A DNA stretch of 31,290 nt, from the IMG/VR virus record IMGVR_UViG_3300012000_000082, positions 1 to 31,290 of that record, one strand, 5' to 3'. The notes beneath the pieces were generated by a model. The model saw only the letters and a program-made list of their open reading frames with translations, was not told the origin of the DNA and searched no databases. The position numbers and the translations under genes were made by a program. Below, piece after piece: positions 5,754-31,290 of this stretch (position 1 is the first letter of the stretch; the number at the start of each line of letters is the position of its first letter). This DNA comes from a virus.

Positions 5754-6097
5754 TTCAAATCCTTATATTCCGATGGGACATAGAACTCTTCCCAGCCTAG
5801 GTAGTGCTTTGCAAGGGTTACTGGAACCAAAAGCGGCTTCTCTCTTGTTGCTTTTCCTTTGAAAAGAACATCATCAATATCTTCTTGGCTTCTTGCTACT
5901 TGACAATACATCCAAGATTGTATTTTTTGAAGCATCTCTAAAGGAAACGCAATTGGATAAGGGTTTTTATCTGCTGTAAGTGTCTCAAGGGGCCTTGCGT
6001 TAGGTCTAGCCTTTTGCTTTTTAGGATTTGTCCATATAGCAATCACTAAATCATTCTCAGAAAAGGTTCCAGAGGCTGTTTTGTATGTTCTAGCCAT
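5750..6097 (-). CDS. Hypothetical protein (115 aa)
   Basis: Function not recognised. The ATG giving MARTYKTASG is preferred: it lies 8 nt inside the end of the preceding gene, and the longer reading frame would run far into that gene. The sequence is basic and globular, with a central helix (LEMLQKIQSWMYCQVAR) and a C-terminal aromatic segment (GWEEFYVPSEYKDLK). It sits between a DNA-binding-like protein and small structural-module proteins in a tightly overlapping operon. Confidence 0.7.
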   Translation of the reverse strand: MARTYKTASGTFSENDLVIAIWTNPKKQKARPNARPLETLTADKNPYPIAFPLEMLQKIQSWMYCQVARSQEDIDDVLFKGKATREKPLLVPVTLAKHYLGWEEFYVPSEYKDLK

Positions 6098-6590
6098 TAG
6101 CCAACCGCCTTGCGATGGCTCGGTAAGTAATCCCAGCGGCTTCAGCGATGTCTGCGGCAGGAACTCCGCGGTTGTAGAGCATACGAGCGACATGGGTAAG
6201 TTCTTGGTTGGCTTTTGCAAACGGACTATCTGGAGGAGTCTTGGCTCTGTAGCGACTAGCAAGAAGGGCTAACTCTTGTAGGTGAGGTTTGATTTCTGGT
6301 GGAACGCTAGGAGAGATACTACGAAGTCTTGGAGAGTTCAGTAGCGGTGCTGTAGTAGTCAAAGACTTAGGTGGAGTCGCAGGGAGCGGTCTGCGTTGTT
6401 CCTCATCGGCTGCGTTCTTGACCCAGAAGTGAACTGTTGATTTTGGTCTAGGTGGTTGTAAAGAATCAGCGATTATTTTGAGAGACCAACCCGCTTTCCA
6501 CAACGCCCTGATTCGGTTGTTGAGTGCTGGTGGCTCTAGAGAAGAAAGAAATCTCACTTCATCTGATGGTAGGCGGACTTTTTTCTTCAT
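6090..6590 (-). CDS. Double helix-turn-helix protein (small-terminase-like or regulator)
   Basis: A 166-aa protein with two HTH-like segments: residues ~24-58 (ALWKAGWSLKIIADSL... STVHFWVK) and the C-terminal ~35 residues (MLYNRGVPAADIAEAAGITY then RAIARRLANG), joined by a Pro-rich linker and an amphipathic helix. The same order and spacing occur in the plus-strand protein at 8383-9018. As first gene of the virion operon it sits where a small terminase subunit often lies, but it could equally be an operon regulator. No Shine-Dalgarno precedes the ATG. Instead TAGAAT ends 6 nt before it, suggesting a leaderless transcript. Confidence 0.75.
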   Translation of the reverse strand: MKKKVRLPSDEVRFLSSLEPPALNNRIRALWKAGWSLKIIADSLQPPRPKSTVHFWVKNAADEEQRRPLPATPPKSLTTTAPLLNSPRLRSISPSVPPEIKPHLQELALLASRYRAKTPPDSPFAKANQELTHVARMLYNRGVPAADIAEAAGITYRAIARRLANG

Positions 6591-6625: not shown

Positions 6626-6980
6626 GGCTAAGGCACTACAACACCTTAGAATGGACGATTTGTAAAATATATGAAGGTTTACGATTTTTGGTTTTGGCCT
6701 GTGAGACGGCTCTGCATGGTGCGAGCCCTTTCCTAAATCGTTTCCGGAAATGTTTTTGATGTATTGGCAAAATTGTTTTTAGTTTTATTTTTTCTTCAGA
6801 AAGTTGAGTCGTGTTGGCTCATGTTTTACTTTTTGGTTCTGGTTTTGTATTGCTGACAAAGACCTGCCTATGTCTAGTCAAATAAAAATGTTTTTAGTTG
6901 TTTGTAGTTGGTCTGGCTAAACATCTTGGTTGCTTATGTCATTGTCTAAAGTTCTAGTCAAGAGTTAGGAGATGGCTAGG

Positions 6981-7512: not shown

Positions 7513-7555
7513 TTAGGTGTTAGGAAAAAGTAAAACCTAACAAAGGGGGAAAGAA

Positions 7556-8382: not shown

Positions 8383-9018
8383 ATGACAAAGATAAACTTC
8401 AGGACAAATCCTGAACAACTAAAGAAAGCGCACTCCGCTAGGGAAATCAACAGATACCCGCGAGTGAAAACAAACCCGCGACTAGCGGGCGAAATCAACA
8501 AAATTGGACAAGTGCTACCGCAGGAAATGGCTGACTTGCTAAAGTCGCTCAACACCGAAAGTAGAAATGGACTTGTTCATGCCCTCACTAAGAAAGGCTG
8601 GACACAGGCGAGTATTGGTAAAGCGTTAGACCTATCACGAGAAAGTATTAGACAAATCGTGAGAGGAACTACCGCGACACCCGTATCACCTGAAATCGTG
8701 ATACCTGAACCACCACGCTATCCAATGCCTACACAGGTTCAATACACAATGCCAAACCCTGAACTCCTAGCGAGGCTAAAGGAACTTCAACCTTTCGCTC
8801 AACAGGTTCGCTCATCAAGTAAAAAGTTTAGGGCAGAGGCAGAGGAATACTCATACCTGCTCAATCAGGCAACAGAGCAAGGCGTAACAGTTTATCGTCT
8901 AGCAAAGTTACTAGGCGTTACTCCGTCCGCTATTCAATTCCGACTTGTTCGCTATGGCTACCGCAATAGTGCTGGCGAAAGCAAGTCATACCAAACAATC
9001 AAGAAAGAGAACAGATAA
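8383..9018 (+). CDS. Double helix-turn-helix DNA-binding protein (211 aa)
   Basis: Two HTH segments: residues ~62-95 (ALTKKGWTQASIGKALDLSR then ESIRQIVRG), a classic turn with a recognition helix, and residues ~165-192 (QGVTVYRLAKLLGVTPSAIQ then FRLVRYGYR). They are separated by a Pro-rich linker and a charged helix starting NPELLARLKELQPF. The linker-helix-HTH half resembles that of the protein at 6090-6590 (PEIKPHLQELALL...). The two related proteins flank the palindromic control region, so one or both may bind there. AAAGGATAAAAGGATAAA precedes the ATG. It could be a repressor/activator or a small-terminase relative. Confidence 0.8.
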   Translation: MTKINFRTNPEQLKKAHSAREINRYPRVKTNPRLAGEINKIGQVLPQEMADLLKSLNTESRNGLVHALTKKGWTQASIGKALDLSRESIRQIVRGTTATPVSPEIVIPEPPRYPMPTQVQYTMPNPELLARLKELQPFAQQVRSSSKKFRAEAEEYSYLLNQATEQGVTVYRLAKLLGVTPSAIQFRLVRYGYRNSAGESKSYQTIKKENR

Positions 9019-9022: not shown

Positions 9023-9376
9023 ATGAAGCCAAGAGCGTGTTCCCAATGCGGGGACTGGTATAACCCTAAGTTTCAGGGAACTGAAAGCCTATGTGGGAAG
9101 TGCCATCTCAAAGAAGTCATCAAAGAAAAACAAAACGAGGCGGAGGGGAGTGATTACCAAAAAGTAAAAACTCCCCGTCCGGCAACCCAAACACAAACAA
9201 CTCATCAACCTGAACCAAGACTCAGGCGTGGAGAGTCAGAGTTCAGAGGCGAGTGCGCTAAATGTGGATTATGGCTTGAAGGCTCGGAGGTCTATAACAG
9301 AGAACGAGGCTGGATTTACAAATGGGTTCATGTTGATTATGACCGCACACGCAGGGACTACTGCTTAGTAGCATAG
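9023..9376 (+). CDS. Double zinc-ribbon protein (117 aa)
   Basis: The N-terminal CSQCGDWY...CGKCH pairs two CxxC knuckles; the C-terminal CAKCGLW...with a later Cys suggests a second metal site. A Thr/Gln/Pro-rich linker joins them and includes QKVKTP, encoded by a copy of the AAAAAGTAAAAA repeat in reading direction. It begins 4 nt after the previous stop with a weak RBS, so translation is probably coupled to the HTH protein; the two may act together. Function otherwise unknown. Confidence 0.8.
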   Translation: MKPRACSQCGDWYNPKFQGTESLCGKCHLKEVIKEKQNEAEGSDYQKVKTPRPATQTQTTHQPEPRLRRGESEFRGECAKCGLWLEGSEVYNRERGWIYKWVHVDYDRTRRDYCLVA

Positions 9377-9497: not shown

Positions 9498-9968
9498 TTA
9501 GTCAGTTACCTTTACTGAAGTTCCTGCGAAGAGACGCTTGATTAGTTCCGCGTCATCAACCCGCACAGAAGTTTCATCGCAAGGGCAGAATTCTGCGAGC
9601 GCCCTGCGTGTTCCATGACTCAACCAACCCGGCTGGTCTTCATAACCACCATCAAACCCAAGTTGATAAAGTCTTTCTTGTACCAAATAAACAGAACGAG
9701 AGTTTCGTGAAATTGCCTCAAACTTCAGACTAGACAACAAAACAACTTCGTCATCTGCAAAAGTATCTGGCGCTGCCGCTGCAAACTTTTTACTTTTTGC
9801 TGGCTTTTCTTCCGGCACAACAACCGGCACATCTGCAACAACTTCTGGAGTTGTGAAGATTGCTGGTTCTGGTTCTGGCTCAACTACGATTGACTCCACC
9901 GCAACAGGCTCAATTACTGGTTCGTAATAAGGCTGTGGGTCTGGAGTTACGACATCATCATTGTTCAT
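9498..9968 (-). CDS. Peptidoglycan-binding-domain-like protein (156 aa)
   Basis: The start is placed at MNNDDVVTPD: AGAAGGA lies upstream and the ATG overlaps the preceding stop as ATGA. The first ~75 residues are a disordered Pro/Glu/Val-rich stretch. The C-terminal ~75 residues (SVYLVQERLYQLGF, DGGYEDQPGWLSHGTRRALA) match the helix pattern of PG_binding_1 domains: VQ..L..LG and a later TR.AL. Coupled to the lysozyme-like gene, it probably helps target cell-wall lysis. A virion-associated role is an alternative. Confidence 0.75.
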   Translation of the reverse strand: MNNDDVVTPDPQPYYEPVIEPVAVESIVVEPEPEPAIFTTPEVVADVPVVVPEEKPAKSKKFAAAAPDTFADDEVVLLSSLKFEAISRNSRSVYLVQERLYQLGFDGGYEDQPGWLSHGTRRALAEFCPCDETSVRVDDAELIKRLFAGTSVKVTD

Positions 9969-11383: not shown

Positions 11384-11536
11384 CTAGCGTTCCCTGCTTG
11401 CGAGCGTCGCGCTCGTCAAAGCCGAGAATCCTAGGGCGATAGTCCAAGGAACTGAATTCTGCCATGCCGCGAGAAAAGACGCAAGTCCGAAGACTAACGC
11501 TCCTACCGCAGTCCAAACTACATTGAGGTTATTCAT
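11384..11536 (-). CDS. Two-helix membrane mini-protein (50 aa)
   Basis: MNNLNVVWTAVGALVFGLAS and a second hydrophobic stretch (VPWTIALGFSALTSATLA) with a short polar turn predict a hairpin of two membrane helices and a basic C-terminus. The size and topology would allow a class II holin, but it is not next to the endolysin, so that is only a possibility. The ATG overlaps the upstream stop (ATGA). The longer in-frame upstream extension is unlikely since it overlaps the HTH gene. Confidence 0.7.
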   Translation of the reverse strand: MNNLNVVWTAVGALVFGLASFLAAWQNSVPWTIALGFSALTSATLASRER

Positions 11537-11739
11537 TGAGTCGTCTTCTTCCTTTTGGGGCTTGTGCGTCCTTTGACGCGGGCTGATGGGTCTCGCAGAG
11601 GTGTTCCGCGACTTTTGATTGCCTTGCGAGCGCAACGATACGAAACCTTTAGTTCGCTTGCCACACTCTCAATAGACAACCCCTCCGCATAAAGGCGGGA
11701 GGCGTCATCAGCAATTCTTTTACTTTTTGTTGAACTCAC
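11533..11739 (-). CDS. Small HTH protein (68 aa)
   Basis: Residues ~10-45 (ADDASRLYAEGLSIESVASE then LKVSYRCARKAIKSRG) form an HTH with a basic recognition helix; the tail RDPSARVKGRTSPKRKKTTQ is strongly basic. GTG start, with GAGGAG 8 nt upstream inside the end of the previous gene. The AAAAAGTAAAA repeat lies in codons 4-7. Probably a DNA-binding regulator; it resembles the single HTH units of the two larger double-HTH proteins. Confidence 0.8.
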   Translation of the reverse strand: MSSTKSKRIADDASRLYAEGLSIESVASELKVSYRCARKAIKSRGTPLRDPSARVKGRTSPKRKKTTQ

Positions 11740-12394: not shown

Positions 12395-12780
12395 TAGTTC
12401 ACCTCCTCTGCTATTTGGTTATACATCTCTGTGGCAGAAACATTTGACGGGAATTCAATAAGACTCATACCTTCTCCGGCAACTAAGAAAAGTGCCGACT
12501 CAACCGCATCATAGAGTTCTCTTTTTGCTTCAGGGTCTAATTCGTTGGAAACACTATCATCATCAAGACCTAAACTGTAGAACTCGTTGGTAAGTGCTTC
12601 TCTTAGTTGGAATTGCTTTTCTGGGCTATCTGTTTCTTGCGCCCAACTAAGAGTTAGACCGCAGGAAGCGAGCGCATCTAAAACTAAAAAGGTAGATACT
12701 GGCTCCTTCAACTCGTTAGATAACGAGTCAGTAAACTCTTCAACTAAATCCGCATAGACATTTGTCTCTCTGTCTGTCAT
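12394..12780 (-). CDS. Acidic hypothetical protein (128 aa)
   Basis: All-helical, acidic protein (starts MTDRETNVYADLVEEF). The start follows TTGGAGAAAGAAA; the ATG shares ATGA with the upstream gene. No domain recognised. It is flanked by two single-helix membrane mini-proteins in the same operon, so interaction with a membrane complex is possible but unproven. Confidence 0.75.
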   Translation of the reverse strand: MTDRETNVYADLVEEFTDSLSNELKEPVSTFLVLDALASCGLTLSWAQETDSPEKQFQLREALTNEFYSLGLDDDSVSNELDPEAKRELYDAVESALFLVAGEGMSLIEFPSNVSATEMYNQIAEEVN

Positions 12781-12947
12781 TTTCTTTCTCCAACTACTTT
12801 TTCCCATTCCAACTCAACCAACTCTTGGCGTAGTTGTTTGTTCTCCCGCATCAACTTCCCGTAGGCGTTGATGGAAACTACCATCACGAAGCATGAACCT
12901 GCGAGCGCGATAATGATTGCGAATAATGTTCCTGTGTCTAAAACCAT
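12777..12947 (-). CDS. Membrane-anchored coiled-coil mini-protein (56 aa)
   Basis: The N-terminal helix TLFAIIIALAGSCFVMVVSI is a membrane anchor; the C-terminal KLMRENKQLRQELVELEWEK is a heptad-like coiled coil. The layout resembles inner-membrane spanins, but the lysis genes are elsewhere. AGGAGGG lies 12 nt upstream, and the spacer plus start reads AAAAAGTAAAAATG: the repeat both supplies the stop of the previous gene (AAA AAG TAA) and runs into this ATG. Confidence 0.75.
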   Translation of the reverse strand: MVLDTGTLFAIIIALAGSCFVMVVSINAYGKLMRENKQLRQELVELEWEKVVGERK

Positions 12948-12949
12948 TT

Positions 12950-13135
12950 TTACTTTTTCCCTCCTAGTGATGGAAGCGGAAGATTTCTAACATACTCCCT
13001 CCGCGCTTCTCTTGTTGGCAAAGCGTCTCGTTCTGCTAACTGCTCCTGCGTCATGTATGTGAACTTCAATAAGAAATCCGCAAAGTCGTTATCTGAAATG
13101 ACCGCAAGGTCTTGTCCAAACTTTCCTTTGTTCAT
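12950..13135 (-). CDS. Hypothetical protein (61 aa)
   Basis: Starts MNKGKFGQDLAVISDNDFAD with a TAATG overlap and GGGGAAG upstream. Mostly helical and charged, with TREARREYVRNL near the C-terminus; ends GGKK, where AAA AAG TAA is the first part of the repeat motif. The pattern (short protein with LAERDALPTREARREYV) looks like the small conserved phage proteins next to tail or membrane genes, but I cannot assign a function. Confidence 0.7.
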   Translation of the reverse strand: MNKGKFGQDLAVISDNDFADFLLKFTYMTQEQLAERDALPTREARREYVRNLPLPSLGGKK

Positions 13136-13403: not shown

Positions 13404-13610
13404 TTACCTGACTTTCGGCGTGTCGCCCGCAGAAAGATAGATGGGGGTGCTTTTTACTTTTTGGTTAGCACTTTCTTCCTCCACGCAACCCCACTCCACA
13501 TAAGCGCACTTGTCCCAATAACAACGGGTAGCAAAGCACATCTCATCACCGCAGGGGCAATCTATCCACTTAGCGTCCGCATCACACTTGGAGCAAGTGG
13601 TCGCTTCCAT
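13404..13610 (-). CDS. Cys-rich zinc-binding small protein (68 aa)
   Basis: CSKCDADAKWIDCPCGDEMC, then CYWDKC and GCVEEE, give nine cysteines, probably two zinc sites. The AAAAAGTAAAAA repeat encodes NQKVKS near residue 50. It overlaps the phosphatase stop by TAATG, so the two are co-translated. Function not recognised. Confidence 0.75.
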   Translation of the reverse strand: MEATTCSKCDADAKWIDCPCGDEMCFATRCYWDKCAYVEWGCVEEESANQKVKSTPIYLSAGDTPKVR

Positions 13611-14164: not shown

Positions 14165-14193
14165 ATTTTATCATTTTGTTTTTGTTTTGGCAA
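14165..14193 (-). promoter_or_regulatory. Promoter (TTGCCA-17-TAAAAT)
   Basis: Minus-strand -35 TTGCCA lies within the last codons of the ADFWN gene; TAAAAT at 17 bp, ~18 nt before the phosphatase ATG. Confidence 0.6.
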
Positions 14194-14332
14194 ATCCTAA
14201 TACCGCATTAGCAATAGCGTTCCAGAAATCTGCTTCTCTCTGATACTGCGCCCTTGACTTGTAAGTAGCCTTAGGCTTACGGCGCATACGCTTGTATGTT
14301 CCGACTATTGCGCTATCTGGTAAATACTTCAT
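14171..14332 (-). CDS. ADFWN-family small basic protein (53 aa), leaderless
   Basis: MKYLPDSAIVGTYKRMRRKP, then READFWNAI, is about half identical to the plus-strand 54-aa protein at 8154-8318, including PDSA(V/I)VGTYKR and ADFWNAI; the C-termini differ. TATACT ends 6 nt before the ATG and there is no Shine-Dalgarno, so its mRNA is likely leaderless. Its last codons carry the promoter for the phosphatase gene. Function unknown; basic, possibly nucleic-acid binding. Confidence 0.75.
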   Translation of the reverse strand: MKYLPDSAIVGTYKRMRRKPKATYKSRAQYQREADFWNAIANAVLGFAKTKTK

Positions 14333-14578: not shown

Positions 14579-14599
14579 AATTTCCCCTTTCTTGACCTA

Positions 14600-14628
14600 A
14601 GGATAACATCTATCCGCATAAAAGTCAA
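14600..14628 (-). promoter_or_regulatory. Promoter (TTGACT-17-TATCCT)
   Basis: Minus-strand TTGACT and TATCCT at 17 bp, ahead of the 69-aa membrane protein. Confidence 0.7.
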
Positions 14629-14718
14629 ATTATAAAAAAGAGACATAACTCACAGAAAAAATGTCCGATTTGTCTTTACATGTTTTGAGCCAAGGTTTTT
14701 GGCATCTACGAACAAATT

Positions 14719-14765
14719 AAGTTGTTCTTACCTGGAACCAGGCATTTGGTGATTTTTACTTTTTG
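14719..14765. repeat. Composite boundary element E1
   Basis: AAGTTGTT, then a CCTGG/CCAGG inverted repeat, then TTTTTACTTTTTG. It lies between the terminator at 14793-14810 and the promoter at 14600-14628 on the minus strand. No coding potential with a start codon was found here. Confidence 0.65.
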
Positions 14766-14783
14766 CCTATGCGCTTTCCGGCA

Positions 14784-14811
14784 AAAAGAAAACCCCCGCT
14801 TACGCGAGGGC
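14784..14811 (-). terminator. Intrinsic terminator
   Basis: Minus-strand stem GCCCTCGC/GCGGGGG followed by TTTTCTTTTTG. Confidence 0.85.
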
Positions 14812-14825
14812 TTCCTAAAATCTAT

Positions 14826-15038
14826 TTAGTTTTTTACGAGAACCGCAGGGTCAAACCCTTTAGCGCACTCTCGCCCTACTGCCCATAAACCTTGGGACTC
14901 CTGTGAGTCGCTGGCTGGGTGGAGTATGAACCCCGCATTAGATAGGTGGACGAACCATGGGTTCTTACCTACTGTGCGTCCGCATTGGCAACACGCATTA
15001 TCGTTGAGACCATTTACCGCATCTCCGAAACTTAGCAT
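14826..15038 (-). CDS. Zinc-ribbon-like small protein (70 aa)
   Basis: CCQCGRTVGKNPWFVHLSNA...GRECAKGFDP: CxxCGR at ~16-21 and a late Cys, with His residues between, in the style of DUF6011-type phage zinc proteins. AAAGGGGGTGTTATAA precedes the ATG. A monocistronic unit with a strong promoter and terminator. Function unknown. Confidence 0.75.
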   Translation of the reverse strand: MLSFGDAVNGLNDNACCQCGRTVGKNPWFVHLSNAGFILHPASDSQESQGLWAVGRECAKGFDPAVLVKN

Positions 15039-15068
15039 TTATAACACCCCCTTTCTGCTAATACCCTA

Positions 15069-15097
15069 AGTATAACATAGCAGGGTTGAAAAGTCAA
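15069..15097 (-). promoter_or_regulatory. Promoter (TTGACT-17-TATACT)
   Basis: Minus-strand TTGACT begins 1 nt after the stop of the 51-aa zinc-ribbon gene; TATACT at 17 bp. Confidence 0.85.
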
Positions 15098-15098
15098 A

Positions 15099-15254
15099 TC
15101 ATGGCGTGTCGCATTGGAAGCAAACGGGTTCTCCATTTACTTCGTTCATACAACCACTATCAAAGTTCTCCTCGCACTTTACGCAGTAGCAAGGGTCGTC
15201 CTCTACCACATGAGTATTCAAGCAAGACTTACAAAACTTCGCAGTCGTGTCCAT
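15099..15254 (-). CDS. Three-knuckle zinc-ribbon mini-protein (51 aa)
   Basis: CKSC...CYCVKC...C...CFQC gives eight cysteines in 51 residues, enough for two zinc sites. The ATG lies inside the preceding gene, in another frame, with GAGGAG 7 nt upstream, and the genes overlap by 26 nt. The dense Cys pattern and good RBS support coding. Function unknown. Confidence 0.75.
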   Translation of the reverse strand: MDTTAKFCKSCLNTHVVEDDPCYCVKCEENFDSGCMNEVNGEPVCFQCDTP

Positions 15255-15339
15255 ACGCCCACTCCTCTGCGTCTATCTCATTGAGTAGGTTGAATACTCG
15301 TCCGCACTCAACACACTTGGCTTTAGTTGTTATTTCCAT
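15229..15339 (-). CDS. Zinc-knuckle mini-protein (36 aa)
   Basis: MEITTKAKCVECGRVFNLLN then a helix and GHDCEVL. The CxxC...HxC layout suits one zinc ion. It starts 10 nt inside the upstream gene, without a separate promoter, so expression depends on coupling. One of the shortest genes here; its place between two other Cys-rich genes supports it. Confidence 0.6.
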   Translation of the reverse strand: MEITTKAKCVECGRVFNLLNEIDAEEWAYGHDCEVL

Positions 15340-15470
15340 GGTGAGTGAACCACCTCGTTGTCGTATCCGCACTTTACGCAAGTGAACCAATAAGTTGAAC
15401 CATCATCTTGAAAATCTTCGTTCTCTGCCTCGCACTCATCTGCCTCACATAGAACCACATACTTAGCCAT
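15330..15470 (-). CDS. Zinc-ribbon mini-protein (46 aa)
   Basis: C8, C13 and CVKCGYD (~31-35) fit a zinc ribbon with an acidic insert (EAENEDFQDDGS). AAAGGGGAAAGAC precedes the ATG and a TATAAT promoter lies ~35 nt upstream. First gene of a three-gene overlapping zinc-protein operon. Confidence 0.75.
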   Translation of the reverse strand: MAKYVVLCEADECEAENEDFQDDGSTYWFTCVKCGYDNEVVHSPWK

Positions 15471-15501
15471 GTCTTTCCCCTTTCGTTGGCTTGTTGGTGT
15501 A

Positions 15502-15530
15502 ATTATAACAAACGCTTTTTAGAAATGCAA
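15502..15530 (-). promoter_or_regulatory. Promoter (TTGCAT-17-TATAAT)
   Basis: Perfect -10 TATAAT with TTGCAT at 17 bp, driving the three overlapping zinc-ribbon genes. Confidence 0.8.
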
Positions 15531-15541
15531 GTCGTGTCGCA

Positions 15542-15643
15542 AAGTTGTTTTTATGTCCAGCACCGCCGCCGCAGCAAGCGAGCGCGAAGATGCAGGTTTT
15601 TACTTTTTGCTAATGCAGTGGGTCCGGCAAACTTCCGAACAAC
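15542..15643. repeat. Composite boundary element E2
   Basis: AAGTTGTT (15542-15549), a GC-rich middle, TTTTTACTTTTTGCTAATGC (15597-15616), GCAGTGGGTCCGGC (15615-15628) and GAACAAC (15637-15643). The 20-mer recurs exactly at 17167-17186 and the 14-mer at 17130-17143. It sits between a terminator and the next promoter. Confidence 0.7.
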
Positions 15644-15670
15644 AAAAAAGACGCGGGGGTTAGTCCGCGC
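15642..15670 (-). terminator. Intrinsic terminator
   Basis: Minus-strand GCGCGG...CCGCGT stem followed by CTTTTTTG, 20 nt after the DUF3846 stop. Confidence 0.8.
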
Positions 15671-15690
15671 CTTTCTTGTGGGAAATCTAT

Positions 15691-16059
15691 TTAGTTGTAT
15701 AGCGCACCGAATAGGTAGGCAGTTGGAATTACTTGTGAGTTATACGCCAACCACTTCTCTACCTGCTCGTCAGTCAGTCCTAGCGTGTAGCCCTCTTCAT
15801 CGCTTCCGCCAGTAATGATTACATTGCCGAGAATAGGATTACCTGCTTTCCATGTCTCCGCATAGATAGCCGACCCGTGTAGGTTTAGTGGCAAGCCCTC
15901 TGCTATGCCATTTTCATTTACCCACATGTCTGTGTTCTCGTCAATTCCAACGCACTCTATCATTCCGCCAACCGCGTCAGATAAAGTCTTGTAAGAAGTT
16001 TCGTTAGTAAATTCAACAACGGACTTCTCACCACTTGTTGTGATTATGACTGCTTTCAT
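15691..16059 (-). CDS. DUF3846-like protein (122 aa)
   Basis: The pattern MKAVII...GEKSVVEF...YKTLSDAVGGMIECV...DMWVNENGIAEGLPLN...GNVIITGGSDEEG, then TLGLT, matches DUF3846, a small conserved protein of phages and mobile elements with no assigned activity. The whole protein is the domain. AAAGGGGGG precedes the ATG; a longer upstream frame is rejected because the promoter -10 overlaps it. Monocistronic cassette. Confidence 0.85.
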   Translation of the reverse strand: MKAVIITTSGEKSVVEFTNETSYKTLSDAVGGMIECVGIDENTDMWVNENGIAEGLPLNLHGSAIYAETWKAGNPILGNVIITGGSDEEGYTLGLTDEQVEKWLAYNSQVIPTAYLFGALYN

Positions 16060-16082
16060 AGTGTCCCCCCTTTCTTTCTCTA

Positions 16083-16111
16083 AGTATAACACCGCAGTAA
16101 ATAAAAGTCAA
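16083..16111 (-). promoter_or_regulatory. Promoter (TTGACT-17-TATACT)
   Basis: Consensus form of the phage promoter, immediately downstream of the terminator at 16129-16160. Confidence 0.85.
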
Positions 16112-16116
16112 GTATC

Positions 16117-16160
16117 TATAAAAAGAAAACTCCCCCGCGCCAAACCAAACGCGAGGGAGT
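16117..16160 (-). terminator. Intrinsic terminator
   Basis: 11-bp stem (one mismatch), minus-strand ACTCCCTCGCG/CGCGGGGGAGT, then TTTTCTTTTTATAG. Confidence 0.85.
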
Positions 16161-16176
16161 CTCCCACCCGACCCGA

Positions 16177-16416
16177 TTAGGCTACGAGCACCACTTCGTA
16201 GCCTCTTGTAAGTTTAGAACTCACCTTGTCGTTAGCGTATGACTTGGCGAGGAATGGATAAGCAAAAGTCTTGACTTGCTTTGCTTGTGGAGCGACTTCT
16301 TCAGCCTTTCCCCACATTGTAATAACCTTGTTATCTTCAACGATAACCTGATAAATCTTCTTGAGACCGGCATTTCCGCGTTCTCCGTCAGACTTCTTGA
16401 CGAGTATCCACTTCAT
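16177..16416 (-). CDS. WGR-domain-like small protein (79 aa)
   Basis: KKIYQVIVEDNKVITMWGKA, Q..KQVKTF, AKSYANDKV and KLTRGYEVV follow the order of a WGR domain (strand, WGR-like WGK, Phe, Ala-rich helix, K..GY). WGR domains bind nucleic acid ends in PARPs and bacterial proteins. A stand-alone WGR-like phage protein would be small but not unknown. The assignment is tentative. CAGAAAGGGG precedes the ATG. Confidence 0.7.
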   Translation of the reverse strand: MKWILVKKSDGERGNAGLKKIYQVIVEDNKVITMWGKAEEVAPQAKQVKTFAYPFLAKSYANDKVSSKLTRGYEVVLVA

Positions 16417-16446
16417 TGTTTTCCCCTTTCTGAAGTTGATAGGAGT

Positions 16447-16474
16447 ATTTTACCAGTTTGCTAGGGGAAGTCAA
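16447..16474 (-). promoter_or_regulatory. Promoter (TTGACT-16-TAAAAT)
   Basis: Minus-strand TTGACT and TAAAAT at 16 bp before the WGR-like gene. Confidence 0.7.
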
Positions 16475-16557
16475 GTCCAAATAGGTATTTCCGTAGTGTG
16501 TTCTCTATCACATTTTTTTACCCTATCACAAGAAGAACCCTTTGGCACTTCTTCCGC

Positions 16558-16613
16558 AAGTTGTTCGTTCTCTCCAGACAGCCGGGTCCAGAGCCGGTGG
16601 CAAAAAGTAAAAA
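16558..16613. repeat. Composite boundary element E3
   Basis: AAGTTGTTCG, a CCGG...CCGG inverted segment, then CAAAAAGTAAAAA. This is the only intergenic copy in region 5 whose AAAAAGTAAAAA part points against the local genes. Confidence 0.65.
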
Positions 16614-16652
16614 CTCGCTCTTCTGAGCCGGACATCAGAATAACTTGTACAT

Positions 16653-16680
16653 GAAAAAACCCCGGCTCTTCAGCCGGGGC
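16653..16680 (-). terminator. Intrinsic terminator
   Basis: Perfect 8-bp stem CCCCGGCT/AGCCGGGG with 4-nt loop; minus-strand TTTTTTC tail. Confidence 0.95.
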
Positions 16681-16693
16681 TTCTCCAGATAAC

Positions 16694-16939
16694 TTATCTA
16701 TCTAGGCGAAGTATCCGCACTAGGTCGCCGGCAGATAACTCCCAGCCGGAATCAGTCTTGCGAGCGCAAGCGGGGTGTGGCTCTATGTCCGCAGGTAAAG
16801 TAATTACTGCGTCATAGTCTTCCTCTAGATACGCTTCCCATGCTTGGATTGCGGGCTTAGCGTAGTCAAGTGGCAGAGGTGGGTAGAAATTACCGCGTAG
16901 GTGCATTTCCATTTGGATTTCTTTAGATAGTGTGTCCAT
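16694..16939 (-). CDS. Hypothetical protein with structured 5' leader (81 aa)
   Basis: MDTLSKEIQMEMHLRGNFYP...PLPLDYAKPAIQAWEAY...ITLPADI...RILRLDR resembles a small protein seen in many actinophages, from memory; no function is known. AAAGAAAGGGAACGC gives the RBS. Uniquely here, the promoter-to-start distance is ~100 nt and filled by a large hairpin starting at the predicted transcript 5' end, so this gene is the best candidate in the window for RNA-level control. Confidence 0.8.
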   Translation of the reverse strand: MDTLSKEIQMEMHLRGNFYPPLPLDYAKPAIQAWEAYLEEDYDAVITLPADIEPHPACARKTDSGWELSAGDLVRILRLDR

Positions 16940-16957
16940 GCGTTCCCTTTCTTTAGG

Positions 16958-17036
16958 TTCAGTAGGGGAGTCGTATTGTTTCCGACCCCCTAGGTTTCAG
17001 GTCGTTCAGGTGTCCAGCGACTTGCCCCCTACTGAA
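16958..17036 (-). ncRNA. Structured 5' leader (riboswitch- or attenuator-like)
   Basis: TTCAGTAGGGG (plus 16958-16968) pairs perfectly with CCCCTACTGAA (17026-17036); the stem continues as AGTCG/CGACT, and inside is a CGACC/GGTCG hairpin plus a further arm. The closing stem begins 1 nt after the predicted transcription start, and the RBS follows its 3' end by ~8 nt. No known riboswitch class was recognised. Confidence 0.6.
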
Positions 17037-17043
17037 TAACTGA

Positions 17044-17072
17044 AGTATAGCAACCCTAGAAAGAAAAGTCAA
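17044..17072 (-). promoter_or_regulatory. Promoter (TTGACT-17-TATACT)
   Basis: TATACTTCAGTTA at the -10/+1 is identical to that of the leaderless promoter at 14339, but here a structured leader follows instead of an ATG. Confidence 0.85.
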
Positions 17073-17104
17073 GTAGTGTCGTTCAGGAAATAGCGTACGC
17101 ATAA

Positions 17105-17179
17105 ATACTTGCGAACAACTTTTTGATTTGCAGTGGGTCCGGCTCCAGAAGATTGCGTGCCGGAGATTTTTACTTTTTG
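17105..17179. repeat. Composite boundary element E4
   Basis: CGAACAACTT (17112-17121), GCAGTGGGTCCGGC (17130-17143) and TTTTTACTTTTTG (17167-17179). It begins directly after the stop codon of the Ntn-hydrolase gene and ends before the next promoter. Confidence 0.7.
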
Positions 17180-17752
17180 CTAATGCGTCCCGAAGTGTTG
17201 AACCATCACATAGACCGGTGGTGAAGTGTTAGGGTCAAGGCGAGAAGCAATAGTTACTGCTTGCCTTGCTAATGTCTTGGCAGTTCCCAGAGTCCGCTTG
17301 CGTGTTTCCAGCGTAGCAAGTAACGCTCCTTGTGCGTAACCTCCGCCAGACCCGATTGTATAAACTCCCGACTCATCTCTAGCCCAAGAGAAATCCTCGC
17401 CTATCTCGTAGATAGTACCGTTGATAGCAACAATGATTTGGCTCTCATGCTCGCCATCTTTAGAGTATGAGTTGTCCTCAAAACACTTTTTCATTTCAGG
17501 TATGAAGTTCATGGTCATAAACTTATCCAGCCTCACGCCATAAGCGGTTGGAGCAATAGTAGGTGGCTTGAATACATACGCCATCAGATTGACGGCTCTC
17601 ATGTCTCCTGCTACACCAATGAGATACTCGCCATTTTTTATTACCTTGCCGTTGTCTTTCGGTAAAGAATAAATCTTATTGTCTTCAGTAACACGACTAT
17701 CGTATGCCAGTACAGCCCAGTTCTCGCCCTGAACGGCGGCGATTGTAGTCAT
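17180..17752 (-). CDS. Proteasome/HslV-like Ntn-hydrolase (190 aa)
   Basis: MTTIAAVQ is followed by AVLAYDSRVTEDNKI, GVAGD (46-50) and YTIGSGGGYAQGAL (131-144). This matches the order of proteasome beta/HslV peptidases: after Met removal Thr becomes residue 1 and the DSR Asp is residue 17 exactly; a Lys in GKVI (mature 35) sits near the Lys33 position. GSGG-YA-GA is the conserved Ser/Gly loop. Such subunits form rings with threonine-protease activity. No partner ATPase of the HslU type lies beside it. It is expressed with the 81-aa gene upstream. It could degrade host or phage proteins, or be a non-proteolytic Ntn relative. Confidence 0.85.
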   Translation of the reverse strand: MTTIAAVQGENWAVLAYDSRVTEDNKIYSLPKDNGKVIKNGEYLIGVAGDMRAVNLMAYVFKPPTIAPTAYGVRLDKFMTMNFIPEMKKCFEDNSYSKDGEHESQIIVAINGTIYEIGEDFSWARDESGVYTIGSGGGYAQGALLATLETRKRTLGTAKTLARQAVTIASRLDPNTSPPVYVMVQHFGTH

Positions 17753-17784
17753 CGTACTGCTCCCTGTCGGTTTTTACTTTTTGC

Positions 17785-18030
17785 CTAGCCTACGAAATCT
17801 TCCCAGAGTTCTTCTCTAAGTTGTTCGTATTTCTCTCCGTTATGCCCGTTGAAACGATTTGAGATGTCCTCGTCTCGGAGAAGATAGTCTAACGAAAGGA
17901 CGGCAACGCACCCCTCCTCGCCAAACATAATCACAAGTTTCGTGTCGCCATCATCAGGGTTATCCACAATGGAAGCAATAAAGGGTGAAGCCCCTCCGTT
18001 AGGGTGGTAGTCCTTAGACACTATTCGCAT
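17785..18030 (-). CDS. Hypothetical protein (81 aa)
   Basis: MRIVSKDYHPNGGASPFIAS, then IVDNPDDGDTKLVIMFGEEG and CVAVLSLDYLL: a small beta-rich protein with a helical acidic C-terminus. No clear Shine-Dalgarno; the promoter -10 is 23 nt before the ATG. The gap to the Ntn-hydrolase gene consists of the AAAAAGTAAAAAC repeat plus an RBS, so the two are likely co-transcribed. Function unknown. Confidence 0.75.
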   Translation of the reverse strand: MRIVSKDYHPNGGASPFIASIVDNPDDGDTKLVIMFGEEGCVAVLSLDYLLRDEDISNRFNGHNGEKYEQLREELWEDFVG

Positions 18031-18213: not shown

Positions 18214-18564
18214 TTAGATTTTATCAACAATCTCAATGGGCACTACGACTTCGGCAGATAAAATCTCGCCAGCAGAAGTCTTACGAACAAACCGCCCTTT
18301 GGGATTATCAAGGTTGAGAACAATCTTTGTGCGCCTCTTACCGACAACGGAAGCAGTCTCACCGCGTAGATAAGAAGTTCCGCACCTGTCGTTTAGCCGA
18401 ACCCTATCTCCTACGGAAAAGTCTTCAACCTTTTTGTTAGCACCAATGACCATCAGCCTTGCGTCAATAAGTTTTCTTAGGTCGTGAAGTTGTCTGTCCA
18501 TGTCGCCATTTTCAACTTTGTCCGAGATGGCAACATACAAGTCTAAGTTGTTAGTCGTTATCAT
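18214..18564 (-). CDS. KOW/SH3-like small protein (116 aa)
   Basis: The second half, KVEDFSVGDRVRLNDRCGTS, YLRGETASVVGKRRTKIVLN and LDNPKGRFVR, has the beta-barrel pattern (VGDRV...GxxASVVG..) of KOW/SH3-like RNA-associated domains. The N-terminus is helical. Start chosen after GGAGAAGAAG; the ATG lies within the end of the preceding gene. RNA or ribosome binding is inferred from fold only. Confidence 0.7.
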   Translation of the reverse strand: MITTNNLDLYVAISDKVENGDMDRQLHDLRKLIDARLMVIGANKKVEDFSVGDRVRLNDRCGTSYLRGETASVVGKRRTKIVLNLDNPKGRFVRKTSAGEILSAEVVVPIEIVDKI

Positions 18565-18775
18565 CTTCTTCTCCATCTACAATGCCAATGTCGTTTGATA
18601 CAGACGCAACATCAAATCCATAGTATTCGTTGATAAATACACTAGCAACGCGAACCGCAAAGTCCTCATCACTCTCACCATCTTGTCTCAACTTCTCGTC
18701 AAGAACAACTGTGGTCATAAGCGTGAAGTAATCACCAACGAACATTACTGTTCGTGAAAGATTTATCTCGTCCAT
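18551..18775 (-). CDS. Acidic hypothetical protein (74 aa)
   Basis: MDEINLSRTVMFVGDYFTLM...DGESDEDFAVRVASVFINEY; ends in EEDDND. Function not recognised. The start codon is formed by the repeat: GGAAAAAGTAAAAATG, where the preceding gene's TAA lies just before GG. It overlaps the next gene by 14 nt. Confidence 0.75.
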   Translation of the reverse strand: MDEINLSRTVMFVGDYFTLMTTVVLDEKLRQDGESDEDFAVRVASVFINEYYGFDVASVSNDIGIVDGEEDDND

Positions 18776-18788
18776 TTTTACTTTTTCC

Positions 18789-19349: not shown

Positions 19350-20426
19350 TTACTTCGCCAACACGAACACCTTGCTCTTAGCAACAAGTGGCTTATCTTC
19401 CGGACCTTTCACATAAGGACTAATCCAAATGCGTTTCTTGATTACGCCTTTGCTTACAGGGTCTTTGTAAGGTTGCCAACGCCAATGACCACCAACAATC
19501 CATCTATGCGACCACTCAACCGCGCTCTCTTCCTGTGTCTCGTCTGTGTCCGCACTTATGTATCTGCGCTTACGGAACTGAACAACTACAAACTCTGATG
19601 GCAGGTTCTCTCGCTCAATGCGTTTGCGTTGCGCTCTGTTTTCAGGCTTGTGCTTTGTTACTTCTGTAAGTGTCTGCGACATGATAAGAAAGTATGACCA
19701 AAGAAGTCTTGTTATGTTTGTAGCAGGAACTAACTTAGTTGCTTTGTATTCTTCCCACTCTTCATCAGAAAGTAGTTCTTTGCCACCCTGCTTGAAAGTA
19801 AGTTTTCTTATGGCTTCCATGTCGTTGTCTGATGGCATAACATCTTCGCCACCAATGATTTCATCTTGAAAAACACTTCCGCACCTTACCCAATGGAAAC
19901 GACCAAGTAATTGGGTTATGGGGTCTTTTTTGTTTTGGTCAAAGATTTGTTTTGCTACATCATCAGGTTGCGTGTATGCGTCATTCCAATAAGAAAGTGA
20001 AAGACCCATCTGTCCTTTTTCACCGAATACTTTTTTCCATGTAATCAAATGAATTAGCATTGTTCTTCCACGAACATCTTGTAGTTCTAGTGGCTTCTCA
20101 AAGTAAGCAAATCCTCTGTCCGCAGGGACTAAAGCCAAATCAAGTCTATCTGTCGGGTCTAGTTTTCCTGAAGCAAATGAAATGAGGTCAGTCATTTCAC
20201 TTTTTACGAAGAAGCACTCCGCATTGTTTCCTACTTCAACAATGTCGTTTTTGTAGATACCAATGACTTTCTTTTCGTCAGAGGCTTCCCAATCTGCTTC
20301 GTTCTCAAAGACATACTTCTTTCCTACTGAAATCTCAATGTAGGTTTGTAGTAAGTCTGTCCAGCGTTTATCGCCACACTTCCCCTTGAAGTATGCCTGT
20401 ATGTCTAGTGCGTCTGTTGGTTTCAC
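19350..20426 (-). CDS. Conserved phage/plasmid protein with RWIV-GHWR domain (358 aa)
   Basis: The C-terminal ~70 residues contain WSHRWIVGGHWRWQPY, RIWISPYVKGPEDKPL and a final beta strand, a conserved module I know from many actinobacterial phage and plasmid proteins; it has been linked in places to AcrVA2-like proteins, which I cannot verify here. The N-terminal ~200 residues are mixed, with a central helix-rich region (TNITRLLWSYFLIMSQTLTE) and a basic KRKR-type segment. It could act in replication, regulation or anti-defence. Monocistronic: the promoter overlaps the end of the upstream gene. Confidence 0.75.
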   Translation of the reverse strand: MKPTDALDIQAYFKGKCGDKRWTDLLQTYIEISVGKKYVFENEADWEASDEKKVIGIYKNDIVEVGNNAECFFVKSEMTDLISFASGKLDPTDRLDLALVPADRGFAYFEKPLELQDVRGRTMLIHLITWKKVFGEKGQMGLSLSYWNDAYTQPDDVAKQIFDQNKKDPITQLLGRFHWVRCGSVFQDEIIGGEDVMPSDNDMEAIRKLTFKQGGKELLSDEEWEEYKATKLVPATNITRLLWSYFLIMSQTLTEVTKHKPENRAQRKRIERENLPSEFVVVQFRKRRYISADTDETQEESAVEWSHRWIVGGHWRWQPYKDPVSKGVIKKRIWISPYVKGPEDKPLVAKSKVFVLAK

Positions 20427-20450: not shown

Positions 20451-20478
20451 ATTGTAGTTGATAGATTACTCAAAGTCA
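20451..20478 (-). promoter_or_regulatory. Promoter (TTGACT-16-TACAAT)
   Basis: The -35 TTGACT is within the last codons (F-D-F-E) of the preceding gene; TACAAT lies 16 bp away. Confidence 0.75.
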
Positions 20479-20876
20479 AATCCATCTTCACTATCTTCTT
20501 CAGCGTCTTCTTTTGGAAACAACTCCCTAAGGGGCATTATGTCCAGCATTTCTAGGTGTTCTCTGAAACAAAGAACTAGACACTCGTGGCACTCTTTAGT
20601 CGCCATGAATTGTTTGGCTATGCCCTTTTGGTAGAACGCCTCAACCATGTCGCTTATGGCTCTGATTTCCCACTCAAAGAGAACAAGTTTTGTATCGCGT
20701 TCATTTTTACTTTTTGCTGACTCACACATTGGTATCCAGCGAGTTGCTCTAGTTATTTTGATTTCGCCATCTTCAGTTGTGTTCTGTTCTGTGGCGATTG
20801 GCTCGTATTGGTGTAGCCCTGTCTTTAGGACTTTATCTACTTTCGTAAAAGAGATTGCTCTGTCTTTATCTTCCAT
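20466..20876 (-). CDS. Hypothetical protein (136 aa)
   Basis: Start set at MEDKDRAISFTKVDKVLKTG, since the longer frame runs through the upstream terminator hairpin. AGAGAG is the only weak RBS. A middle KECHEC pair and a Glu/Asp-rich C-terminus (EDAEEDSEDGFDFE) are visible; WIPMCESAKSKNERD is encoded partly by the AAAAAGTAAAAA repeat. An adjacent gene to the RWIV-GHWR protein, possibly functionally linked. Function unknown. Confidence 0.7.
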   Translation of the reverse strand: MEDKDRAISFTKVDKVLKTGLHQYEPIATEQNTTEDGEIKITRATRWIPMCESAKSKNERDTKLVLFEWEIRAISDMVEAFYQKGIAKQFMATKECHECLVLCFREHLEMLDIMPLRELFPKEDAEEDSEDGFDFE

Positions 20877-21523: not shown

Positions 21524-21757
21524 TTAGCCCTCGTCAGATACAACCTGCTGGGCTATCTCAACGAAATCTTCGGCTGCCGAACCCTGAAAGTGCCACTCGC
21601 CATTTTCGTAGGTCTCAACAACTTCAGACCATTGTTCGTCTGTAATGAACAATCCGTTTTGGTATCCCTCAACTGTTGCTTTGTCCCAATAGGCGACAAT
21701 CAACTCGGTATCAGGTTCGTATGCTTCCAACTGCTCTAGTAGTTCTTTGACTTTCAT
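21524..21757 (-). CDS. Conserved small phage protein (77 aa)
   Basis: MKVKELLEQLEAYEPDTELI, VAYWDKATVEGY, TDEQWSEVVE resembles a widespread short phage protein whose opening (KVKELIEQLQ.YDPDTELIVAYWDK) I recall; its function is unknown. The start codon is part of the repeat: GCAAAAAGTAAAAATG. Last gene of the operon starting at 22480. Confidence 0.75.
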   Translation of the reverse strand: MKVKELLEQLEAYEPDTELIVAYWDKATVEGYQNGLFITDEQWSEVVETYENGEWHFQGSAAEDFVEIAQQVVSDEG

Positions 21758-21778
21758 TTTTACTTTTTGCTTCCTCTC

Positions 21779-21943
21779 TTAGGCTACTGCGAGTTCCGAG
21801 TTGTTCGGAGTTCGCACTTCTCTTCGCGGTTTGTGTGGGCGTGGAACATCTCCAACCCAATCGCAAACCAATCCGTCATACATGTCCTGCCATAAACCAA
21901 AGTCTTCTTTTATTTCCCACCCGCATTTCTTACACACAATCAT
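21779..21943 (-). CDS. Zinc-ribbon mini-protein (54 aa)
   Basis: MIVCKKCGWEIKEDFGLWQD...LVCDW gives CxxC plus a later Cys, and His further on (RPHKPRR). The start codon is part of the repeat motif (GGAAAAAGTAAAAATG), with GGAAAGG upstream as RBS. Function unknown. Confidence 0.75.
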   Translation of the reverse strand: MIVCKKCGWEIKEDFGLWQDMYDGLVCDWVGDVPRPHKPRREVRTPNNSELAVA

Positions 21944-21967
21944 TTTTACTTTTTCCTTTCCTTGCCG

Positions 21968-22962: not shown

Positions 22963-22988
22963 TTGTTTTCCCCTTTTACTTTTTAGAT

Positions 22989-26680: not shown

Positions 26681-26923
26681 CTACTCTTTTTCTACTGCTT
26701 TGTCAAATTGAGCGTCAAGGTCGTCTTCCATTACTGATTGGTAGATTTCAGCCCTCTGTTGCTCATCTGATTTAGCGAGCGCATAGGCAACCGAAGCCCT
26801 ATCCGCGTCCCCTGCCATCTCAACCGCACTCCAATCGTCTTCCGACCAATCGGAAGTTTCCACAATCACAATGCCATCTGCGTTGCCATAGTTTCCATCT
26901 ATGGCGAAGTATGAAGTTGCCAC
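26681..26923 (-). CDS. Acidic hypothetical protein (80 aa)
   Basis: GTG start formed from a repeat variant: GAAAGGAAAAAGTAAAAGTG. MATSYFAIDGNYGNADGIVI, then DWSEDDWSAVEMAGDADRAS: acidic with a helical C-terminus. Function unknown. Last gene of the unit starting at 27922. Confidence 0.75.
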   Translation of the reverse strand: MATSYFAIDGNYGNADGIVIVETSDWSEDDWSAVEMAGDADRASVAYALAKSDEQQRAEIYQSVMEDDLDAQFDKAVEKE

Positions 26924-26941
26924 TTTTACTTTTTCCTTTCT

Positions 26942-27095: not shown

Positions 27096-27764
27096 TTATC
27101 CTTTCACTAGTTCTACATCTTTGACCGCAGAAACTTCAATGACTTTTTTAGCCCCCGGACAATCCGAATACCAATCATCAACATCTTCAGAGTTAGCGCA
27201 AGCGCACCCATCTACATTGTCTCGTTCTTCGTAGTCAGCGTGAGAGTCAGGTATGTCCCACTCTTTTTCTATGGAGTGTTCCCCATCTTGGAAAACATAC
27301 ACGCCACCGAAACCTTGTTCTTCTTCCCAATCTAAAGTTATTTCTAACTCTGGGTATTGAGAAGAAAGATTTTCAAGGGCTTCAATAGGTGGAGACCACG
27401 CAGTTTGAAATCTGTAACCAAGATTAGTTTCAGAGTCATTAGTCATTTCAGTATCAGAATACTTGTTGCTATCTGCTACACCAATGTCCCACTTAGTTCC
27501 CCACTCACGATTATTGAAGTTATACCAGTTGAACGCACCATCACCTTGTCGTTCTCCATCTGCGTAACCATGAACACCCTCATACTCTTCCATCTTGTCT
27601 TCAGGTGGGCGAACTATGTTCCAGAACGCAATAATCGGATTTGAGTAAGTCTGCGCCCCATCTTCAAAGTTGCGTTGGTATGGCGCATTGAGTTGTGCTT
27701 TTACTTTTTGGATTTGCTCTTTGTCGCCATCTATGGACAAAGAGTTGAATACCCAGTTTGGCAT
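27096..27764 (-). CDS. Api92/DUF1281-like ferredoxin-fold protein (222 aa)
   Basis: MPNWVFNSLSIDGDKEQIQK, FNNREWGTKWDIGVAD and FQTAWSPPIEALENLSSQYP then ELEITLDWEEE follow the Api92/DUF1281 pattern (MPNW.xN.L.I.G, WGTKW, F.TAWsPP). The family is common in phages and plasmids and its role is unclear. The start shares TAATG with the 52-aa gene; a longer in-frame extension is rejected. A C-terminal CACANSED Cys pair is additional. Confidence 0.85.
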   Translation of the reverse strand: MPNWVFNSLSIDGDKEQIQKVKAQLNAPYQRNFEDGAQTYSNPIIAFWNIVRPPEDKMEEYEGVHGYADGERQGDGAFNWYNFNNREWGTKWDIGVADSNKYSDTEMTNDSETNLGYRFQTAWSPPIEALENLSSQYPELEITLDWEEEQGFGGVYVFQDGEHSIEKEWDIPDSHADYEERDNVDGCACANSEDVDDWYSDCPGAKKVIEVSAVKDVELVKG

Positions 27765-28200: not shown

Positions 28201-28254
28201 CATCACAACAACTCGCGGTTCTAGCCAGTAACCTTCCCTGTTTTTACTTTTTGG
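28201..28254. repeat. Composite boundary element E5
   Basis: CATCACAACAACTCGCGGTT then CTAGCCAG, followed by TTTTTACTTTTTGG at 28241-28254. Direct partner of the copy at 28311-28338. Confidence 0.7.
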
Positions 28255-28273: not shown

Positions 28274-28338
28274 TTTTTACTTTTTGGTGCGTACGCCTTC
28301 GCTGTGGCGACATCGCAACAACTTGCGGTTCTACACCA
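28274..28338. repeat. Composite boundary element E6
   Basis: TTTTTACTTTTTGG (28274-28287) plus CATCGCAACAACTTGCGGTT then CTACACCAG (28311-28338), 110 bp from its twin. The order of the two parts is reversed relative to E5. Confidence 0.65.
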
Positions 28339-30091: not shown

Positions 30092-30142
30092 AATTCGTCT
30101 CTCTATCTCTTGCCGCTTTTACTTTTTAGCGGTTAAGCAAAA

Positions 30143-30171: not shown

Positions 30172-30259
30172 TAGTCATGCCGCTATTTTTTGTTTTTGCT
30201 TTTTGGCTTGGATTCTTTCTTCCCTCGCCGCGATTGCAAATAGCGCACGCCATAAAAAC

Positions 30260-30439: not shown

Positions 30440-30992
30440 AAACAGTATTTTACTTAGCGCTCGCCGTTATGTCAATAGGGGCACGCCGCTCTTGCCGCTG
30501 CTGCCTGGCCGCTGTGAGAAGTTGTTGAATTGTTTGTAGTTGACTTTGCGGCGGAGCCGCAAAGCGGAGTCTAGTGATAGAAAATATAAAAGTCAAATCC
30601 ACACGCTCGCCACTCAGAAGACCGGCCGCCAGGTAGAACTACAAACAACTTACGGACATCGTTAAGACATCCCTCGTGGTGCAGCCTCCCAGATTCAGAC
30701 ACCTGTGTTTTTACTTTTTACTTATCAGGTGGAGGAGATGGTGGTTACGGCGGAGGTGGCGTGCCGGCCCCTGCACATCAAAACAAGTTGTTGGTTTCTT
30801 TACCTGGTCCGGTCATGCCTGAACAACCTGCGCAACGATGCTTGTTCTGGAAGGCGGGCCCTGCAACTACAAACAATTTGCTGGCTGTGGATAACCAGGT
30901 AAACACTCTGGCGCATACAGGATTACAACTAACGGTTTACTAAAAGTAGCACTTGCCGGCTTCTGGCTGCAAGCAACTACGAACAATTGCGG
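30440..30992. other. Repeat-rich region without supported genes
   Basis: Contains four copies of a (C)AACTACAAACAA(C/T)T repeat in both orientations (30529-30542, 30637-30651, 30864-30880, 30974-30990), a CTTTGCGG/CCGCAAAG hairpin (30544-30564), a promoter (30568-30596), an AAAAAGTAAAAA motif (30708-30719), and GCGCTCGCCGTT/GCACGCCGC words. Open frames here lack RBS and look unlike proteins. An origin, terminus or partition-like site would fit, but nothing proves it. Confidence 0.55.
30568..30596 (-). promoter_or_regulatory. Promoter (TTGACT-17-TAGACT)
   Basis: Good match at 17 bp, but ~130 nt before the next gene (30439) with a hairpin in between, so a leader RNA may exist. Confidence 0.6.
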
Positions 30993-31151: not shown

Positions 31152-31200
31152 TCCCAGGCCGCTCCTTTCATTTTTACTTTTTGGCTAAGCGCAAGCCGTT

Positions 31201-31240: not shown

Positions 31241-31290
31241 AGGTACATTTGCGCTCGCCGTTGATTTGACTTTTTACTTTTTACTAACTA

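Follow-up and report, generated by a model that had tools for sequence, protein, structure and literature searches.

Gene junctions in a 31,290-nucleotide viral contig (IMG/VR record IMGVR_UViG_3300012000_000082, positions 1 to 31,290; hereafter the window) carry many copies of one short directional DNA site, and the reality of this site family is strongly supported. The basic unit is a single asymmetric site of ~15 bp, [T]AG[C]AAAAAGTAAAAA, with the opposite-strand form TTTTTACTTTTTG; AAAAAGTAAAAA is the transcribed-strand reading of the TTTTTACTTTTT word. The 12-mer was found in 18 exact copies and in 26 copies with at most one mismatch, against 1.09 expected and a maximum of 5 in 100 shuffles. 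An initial annotation had confined the word to four intergenic elements, E1-E4; the 26 copies are spread over 6.8-31.3 kb instead. In anatomy the sites resemble stoperators, and a probability of about 0.5 is given here to the reading that a phage protein binds them and halts or insulates transcription directionally at boundaries of the presumed early region.

The window is 99.9% identical to one end of a 124,941-base contig (G002), and the ~125-kb uncultured phage that it represents is an actinobacterial phage, probably from freshwater. Its portal protein shares 74.5% identity with the portal of Actinomycetia phage DSL-LC01 (OQ999401), a metagenome-assembled lake phage and a relative of the window phage, and has remoter kinship with the portals of large phages of Microbacterium and Arthrobacter. 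When the window was compared by megablast with annotated phages, no match was returned. The minus-strand stretch 3-6590 is part of the structural block and includes the portal gene. A small block of plus-strand genes follows at 7-9.4 kb, and then come ~50 small minus-strand genes; these two together are presumed, by analogy, to be an early block and are so named here. Gene lists in the relatives are predictions.

The same site recurs throughout the lineage. In near-full-length relatives the core 11-mer occurs 19-26 times, for the most part within one block of ~20-25 kb, and the site number per longer record is 16-31. A position weight matrix built from 123 sites in five genomes of the window lineage reads AG(C)AAAAAGTAAAA(A) and has about 15 informative positions, with neither dyad symmetry nor a signal in the flanks. 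An exact-match scan of viral contigs with TTAGCAAAAAGTAAAAA returned, among the matches listed, many unrelated-looking contigs with one match each. Aligned to the relative L011, 214 of 216 site bases were identical against 84% in the flanks, and in more distant relatives the sites were 90-100% identical and the flanks 64-72%. Sites in coding sequence were equally conserved. This pattern of substitution indicates that the sites are under near-perfect purifying selection.

Placement and orientation are as constrained as the word. Gene junctions make up 30% of the window sequence and hold 20 of its 26 sites (P 1e-6), the other six lying inside genes; several sites span the whole gap between a stop codon and the next start codon, and many occupy junctions with neither terminator nor promoter. 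Over nine genomes from two lineages, 188 of 209 sites point the same way as the gene nearest to them (P 5e-35), and 18-42% of each record contains 85% of the sites; in the near-full-length G002 and G006 most of them lie in one block adjoining the portal gene. Window sites point minus in the minus block and plus in the plus block (7525 and 9159), with E3 (16602) as the clear exception. Around 120 sites in six genomes, terminator T-tails at most 50 bp upstream numbered 11 against 1.8 expected, and promoters 50-150 bp downstream numbered 28 against 8.9 expected. The order terminator, site, promoter is thus general.

The four elements of the initial annotation were examined for this order. On the minus strand, E1 (14753..14764) lies between an intrinsic terminator at 14786..14813 and a sigma-70-like promoter at 14628-14600 (TTGACT-17-TATCCT), and E2 (15597..15608) between a terminator at 15643..15672 and a promoter at 15530-15502 (TTGCAT-17-TATAAT). 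At E3 (16602..16613) the terminator (16653..16683) and promoter (16474-16447, TTGACT-16-TAAAAT) are again on the minus strand, and the site itself is on the plus strand, reversed relative to the flanking genes. E4 (17167..17178, minus) directly follows the stop codon of an HslV-like gene and lies upstream of a promoter at 17072-17044 (TTGACT-17-TATACT). Terminator ends are approximate. The described succession of gene, terminator, element, promoter and gene therefore holds at E1-E3, with E4 placed directly after a stop codon; the idea of one layout at all four fails at E3, which points the opposite way in both relatives as well.

The annotation had further joined the word to neighbouring motifs in a composite element. 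Its components were located as described: TTTTTACTTTTTG at 14753, 15597 and 17167 (plus) and in reverse at 16601-16613; the AAGTTGTT/AACAACTT words at 14719, 15542, 16558 and 17114; and the exact 20-mer TTTTTACTTTTTGCTAATGC shared by 15597-15616 and 17167-17186. The shared exact 14-mer is also present, its true length being 15 (TGCAGTGGGTCCGGC, at 15614 and 17129). As a conserved unit, the composite did not survive comparison. In two relatives (L011 and L012, flanks 80-84% identical) RSCAAAAAGTAAAAA is the only part of E1-E4 that is kept, while both GC-rich half-palindromes (CCTGG/CCAGG and GGTCCGG) vary freely, as does the 14-mer, and CCTGG and GGTCCGG show no enrichment near sites in six genomes. 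At E1, all 12 bases are kept in L011, L012, G025, L028 and G027. The AACAACTT/AAGTTGTT words have a weak association with the sites, about two-fold in six genomes (44 of 122 junction sites against 22 expected). In the window AAGTTGTT occurs 19 times where 2.35 copies would be expected; coding sequence accounts for part of this excess, and 7 of its copies, including those at E1-E4, are intergenic. What had been reported as a composite element is the site plus variable sequence.

A site that follows a terminator and precedes a promoter argues for a function at the DNA level, and the best explanation for a site that is conserved, directional, located at boundaries and not at promoters would be a protein that binds there and stops or insulates RNA polymerase. 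We infer here the binding of a protein, its identity, and the block or insulation of transcription that binding would cause. In the proposed mechanism, a phage-encoded sequence-specific DNA-binding protein would occupy the ~26 sites and, depending on their orientation, halt or insulate RNA polymerase; it would thereby back up the terminators and keep each unit apart from the one upstream of it, and the occupied sites could together shut the whole block down. The insulator function that the initial annotation had offered as an option is compatible with the data because terminators lie just upstream and promoters 50-150 bp downstream of the sites over six genomes.

The nearest known system is that of the Cluster A mycobacteriophages. 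Their stoperators are asymmetric sites of 13-14 bp, 20-30 per genome, oriented with transcription and lying in short intergenic gaps, with motifs that vary by subcluster, and they are read by a monomeric protein of the TipsytheTRex type with two DNA-binding domains, a helix-turn-helix (HTH) and a Stoperator domain (PMC6550527, PMC9283540). Short asymmetric sites, 20-30 per genome, in short intergenic gaps, oriented with transcription and with motifs that vary by lineage, are shared by the window lineage with phages such as L5 and TipsytheTRex. The window-phage sites differ in being mostly in one block, after terminators and before promoters, with some in genes, and the operator copies that overlap early lytic promoters in L5 were not found here. 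Cluster A phages are temperate with lysogenic immunity; in the eight long relatives searched no tyrosine integrase was found. No homologue of the known repressor was found in the searches made with the two-HTH candidate family, the binder here being a candidate only. The sites are therefore called stoperator-like in anatomy and are not filed as members of the class, because neither promoter-operator copies nor a repressor relative was found and the defining activity, a halt of elongation in one orientation only, is here a proposed one.

Motif variation by lineage extends through the family. Other lineages carry the in-register variants GGGTAAAAA, GGATAAAAA and GGGAAAAAA, which align with the core AAGTAAAAA. 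Records without the AAAAAG word often carry a substitute, RGGGTAAAAAT in G024, G028 and others, GGATAAAAAT in L094, and CTATRTATRARGGGGAAAAAA in L015-L021, where it commonly stands right after a terminator; certain records, short or distant ones, showed no recognisable word. The GG-word records group together as a single clade in the portal tree (100/99), and one GGGTAAAAA record (L087) is nested in the GGGAAAAAA group. A second over-represented word, GTGCAGGAA, was noted in the GG-word lineages L073, L075, L087, L094, L096 and L102. DSL-LC01 is without the AAAAAGTAAAAA site and carries 16 copies of a 26-bp promoter-like word, GATTCTAAAGATGTTATAATRGAATC (L103, 24795-43305). These copies stand before small-gene cassettes, many of them directly after a terminator, and in this they are like the window site; unlike it, the 26-bp word has inverted-repeat ends and includes a -10 box. 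The DSL-LC01 repeats are probably a promoter/operator.

Three HTH proteins were examined as possible binders. The best candidate is encoded at 6090..6590 (minus) and is universal in the family. Its predicted structure contains two tri-helical HTH units (mean predicted local distance difference test score, pLDDT, 85.8; predicted template modelling score, pTM, 0.45), the pTM leaving their relative placement unsure. Residues 41 and 51, both in the first HTH, are fixed differently in AAG-word and GG-word lineages; among control proteins, the portal (584 aa) has one such column and six other scored proteins have none, nor does the HTH protein 11533-11739. The protein is a lead and not proof, because the residue pattern was noticed in hindsight and a single tree branch carries the change in both traits, and it may alternatively be a terminase small subunit (weak Pfam match to Terminase_5). 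The second candidate, a universal 68-residue HTH protein with a basic tail (11533..11739, minus), has one residue in its recognition helix (column 33) that separates the words; in the AAG-word lineage its own gene has a site at the 5' end, as seen in the window, and the N-terminal KSK codons recur in relatives. It was rejected as the binder, as the word changes between GGGTAAAAA and GGGAAAAAA without change in column 33 or the recognition helix. The third protein (8383..9018, plus), a two-HTH paralogue of the first, was not found in several site-carrying records; it was set aside as a necessary binder on this result for G022, G026, G027 and G029, which all have the same word and of which G022, G026 and G029 are incomplete records.

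Several findings weigh against the stoperator-like reading. No site overlaps a predicted sigma-70 promoter (score at least 11.2, six genomes), so the promoter-operator class of L5 was not found. With no tyrosine integrase in the eight long relatives, a prophage state that would need silencing is not evident. A PDB profile search with the two-HTH candidate family returned no mycobacteriophage repressor at expectation values (E) up to 1, and the candidate gave no significant fold match. Members of a single clade carry different words, GGGTAAAAA in L087 and GGGAAAAAA in L018 and L021, with no change in the recognition helices of either candidate. The reversed orientation of E3 is retained in L011 and L012. 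A more far-reaching version can be entertained only tentatively, namely that the sites form a boundary code unrelated by descent to the known stoperators, in which a new two-HTH regulator would read an asymmetric site for directional insulation without lysogeny. So understood, each site might combine, again only tentatively, a TAAAAA half that hardly varies with a half specific to the lineage, and the code would insulate the units of the early block in a family of large, largely uncultured actinobacterial phages.

The promoters enriched 50-150 bp downstream could also be taken to mean that the sites serve activation, with early or middle transcription stimulated by a phage protein that binds ahead of sigma-70 promoters. 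The L015-L021 lineage lends this some weight: its 21-bp element precedes the -35 box by 15-29 nt, and most spacings are 17-18 or 28-29 nt, two classes about one helical turn apart. In the window lineage, however, the distances range from 60 to 136 nt with no phase, and many sites overlap start codons or sit inside genes with no promoter downstream, which makes activation unlikely. The orientation lock, together with the ATG that directly follows 20 of 140 sites (about one in seven), would suit a site that acts as a promoter in its own right or as a signal in the RNA for translation or processing of early transcripts. Here a -10-like hexamer was sought and found at no fixed offset, which counts against the site as a promoter; the flanks hold no information, no sigma-70 region 2 was found, and sites between terminator and promoter would be transcribed by read-through only. 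A promoter or RNA signal is accordingly judged improbable.

Recombination was the other function offered by the initial annotation, in which the repeats would be homology joints for the exchange of promoter-gene-terminator cassettes. In the account given in PMC4503421, which cites Arbiol 2010 and Comeau 2014, the promoter-early plus stem-loop (PeSL) elements of T4-type phages are credited with gene shuffling. As far as that account goes, both systems have a variable region in which small gene cassettes are bracketed by terminators and promoters, while the window phage differs in having a distinct ~15-bp site between terminator and promoter and no enrichment of breakpoints at it. Cassette boundaries are indeed where the sites stand, and one cassette swap fits the idea: in G006 the blocks 14753-15056 and 15712-16459 have traded places, and the E1 site is exactly where the aligned part of the moved block ends. 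A single exchange does not establish a pattern, and the site has in any case been conserved at that position. The breakpoint check that had been proposed was carried out by asking whether neighbouring window genes are still neighbours in each of four relatives, on predicted gene sets and with lost genes scored as breaks. Broken junctions numbered 28 with a site and 85 without, and conserved junctions 25 with and 42 without; breaks are thus not concentrated at the elements (28/113 broken against 25/67 conserved), and the odds ratio of 1.8 runs contrary to the idea (p = 0.09). Against it stand also the six sites located within genes and the shortness of the conserved core, which measures ~15 bp and is rich in A; near-perfect purifying selection and lineage-specific words would not be expected from mere homology. 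Because the orientation lock, the selection and the lineage-specific words fit a protein-binding site better, a role as recombination joints appears quite improbable. A structural or replicative role (nucleoid binding, partition, origin iterons or packaging) would account for many copies of one asymmetric word in one genome block, but it is very improbable, the junction placement and an orientation that tracks genes and flips in the plus block at 7-9.4 kb being unexpected there.

The remaining sites, on the minus strand unless stated, illustrate the range of positions. One-mismatch copies lie at 6823..6834, at the head of the structural block and upstream of its gene 6090-6590; at 7525..7536 (plus), in the plus gene block and oriented as its genes; and at 11717..11728, at the 5' end of HTH gene 11533-11739, over the KSK codons. 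Further one-mismatch copies are found at 22973..22984, upstream of gene 22516-22962; at 26923..26934, ending in the GTG start of gene 26681-26923; at 27698..27709, near the 5' end of gene 27096-27797; and at 30116..30127, upstream of gene 29630-30091. A weak one-mismatch site, AAAAAGCAAAAA, lies at 30193..30204. The sites at 12947..12958, 21757..21768 and 21943..21954 end in the start codons of genes 12777-12947, 21524-21757 and 21779-21943, respectively, and that at 18775..18786 fits between a stop codon and the start codon of gene 18551-18775. Inside genes are 9159..9170 (plus, in gene 9023-9376, read as QKVK), 9787..9798 (in 9498-10001), 13451..13462 (in the 3' part of 13404-13610) and 20704..20715 (in 20466-20939). 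The sites at 28241..28252 and 28274..28285 form a close pair. The site at 30708..30719 stands 123 nt upstream of the -35 box of promoter 30596-30568, which is near the 5' end of gene 30450-30602; 31171..31182 is upstream of gene 30993-31151, and 31271..31282 is at the window end. The site at 17771..17782, after the stop of gene 17785-18030 and before the HslV-like gene, has 12/12 bases in 8 of 10 relatives aligned.

Some neighbouring features were recorded along the way. The HslV/proteasome-like peptidase gene at 17180-17752 (minus; phrog_1040, E 3.6e-27) is present in 15 of 15 relatives compared and has a site on either flank. Between the E4 promoter and gene 16694-16939, a conserved leader at 16955-17030 (minus) contains a long inverted repeat, CAGTAGGGG...CCCCTACTG, and is possibly a structured RNA with no Rfam match; a 47-aa reading frame in the E4 leader (16959-17102) has matches in eight relatives. 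Rfam and transfer RNA scans found nothing. The small genes 8154-8318 (plus) and 14171-14332 (minus), one in each block, are diverged copies in opposite orientation (73% over 109 nt) that carry YLPDSAIVGTYKR and GLPDSAVVGTYKR, respectively. The gene at 19350-20426 has been relocated and inverted relative to G006 74964-75978, from minus block to plus block. A small serine resolvase of 223-233 aa occurs in four of the eight long relatives without tyrosine integrase (G002 53357-53803, G006 119305-119748, G024 68653-69096 and G025 1895-2338).

To our knowledge, stoperators are documented mainly in one phage cluster. If the stoperator-like reading is true, genome-wide directional control of transcription would be more general, extending to a widespread group of phages that has a lake phage among its relatives, and the lineage words, which differ in register by one or a few bases, would offer a natural series in which a joint change of specificity in a regulator and its two dozen sites could be tested. 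The site family itself explains the repeated A-rich words at the gene junctions of these phages, and it advises caution against reading such words as recombination joints.

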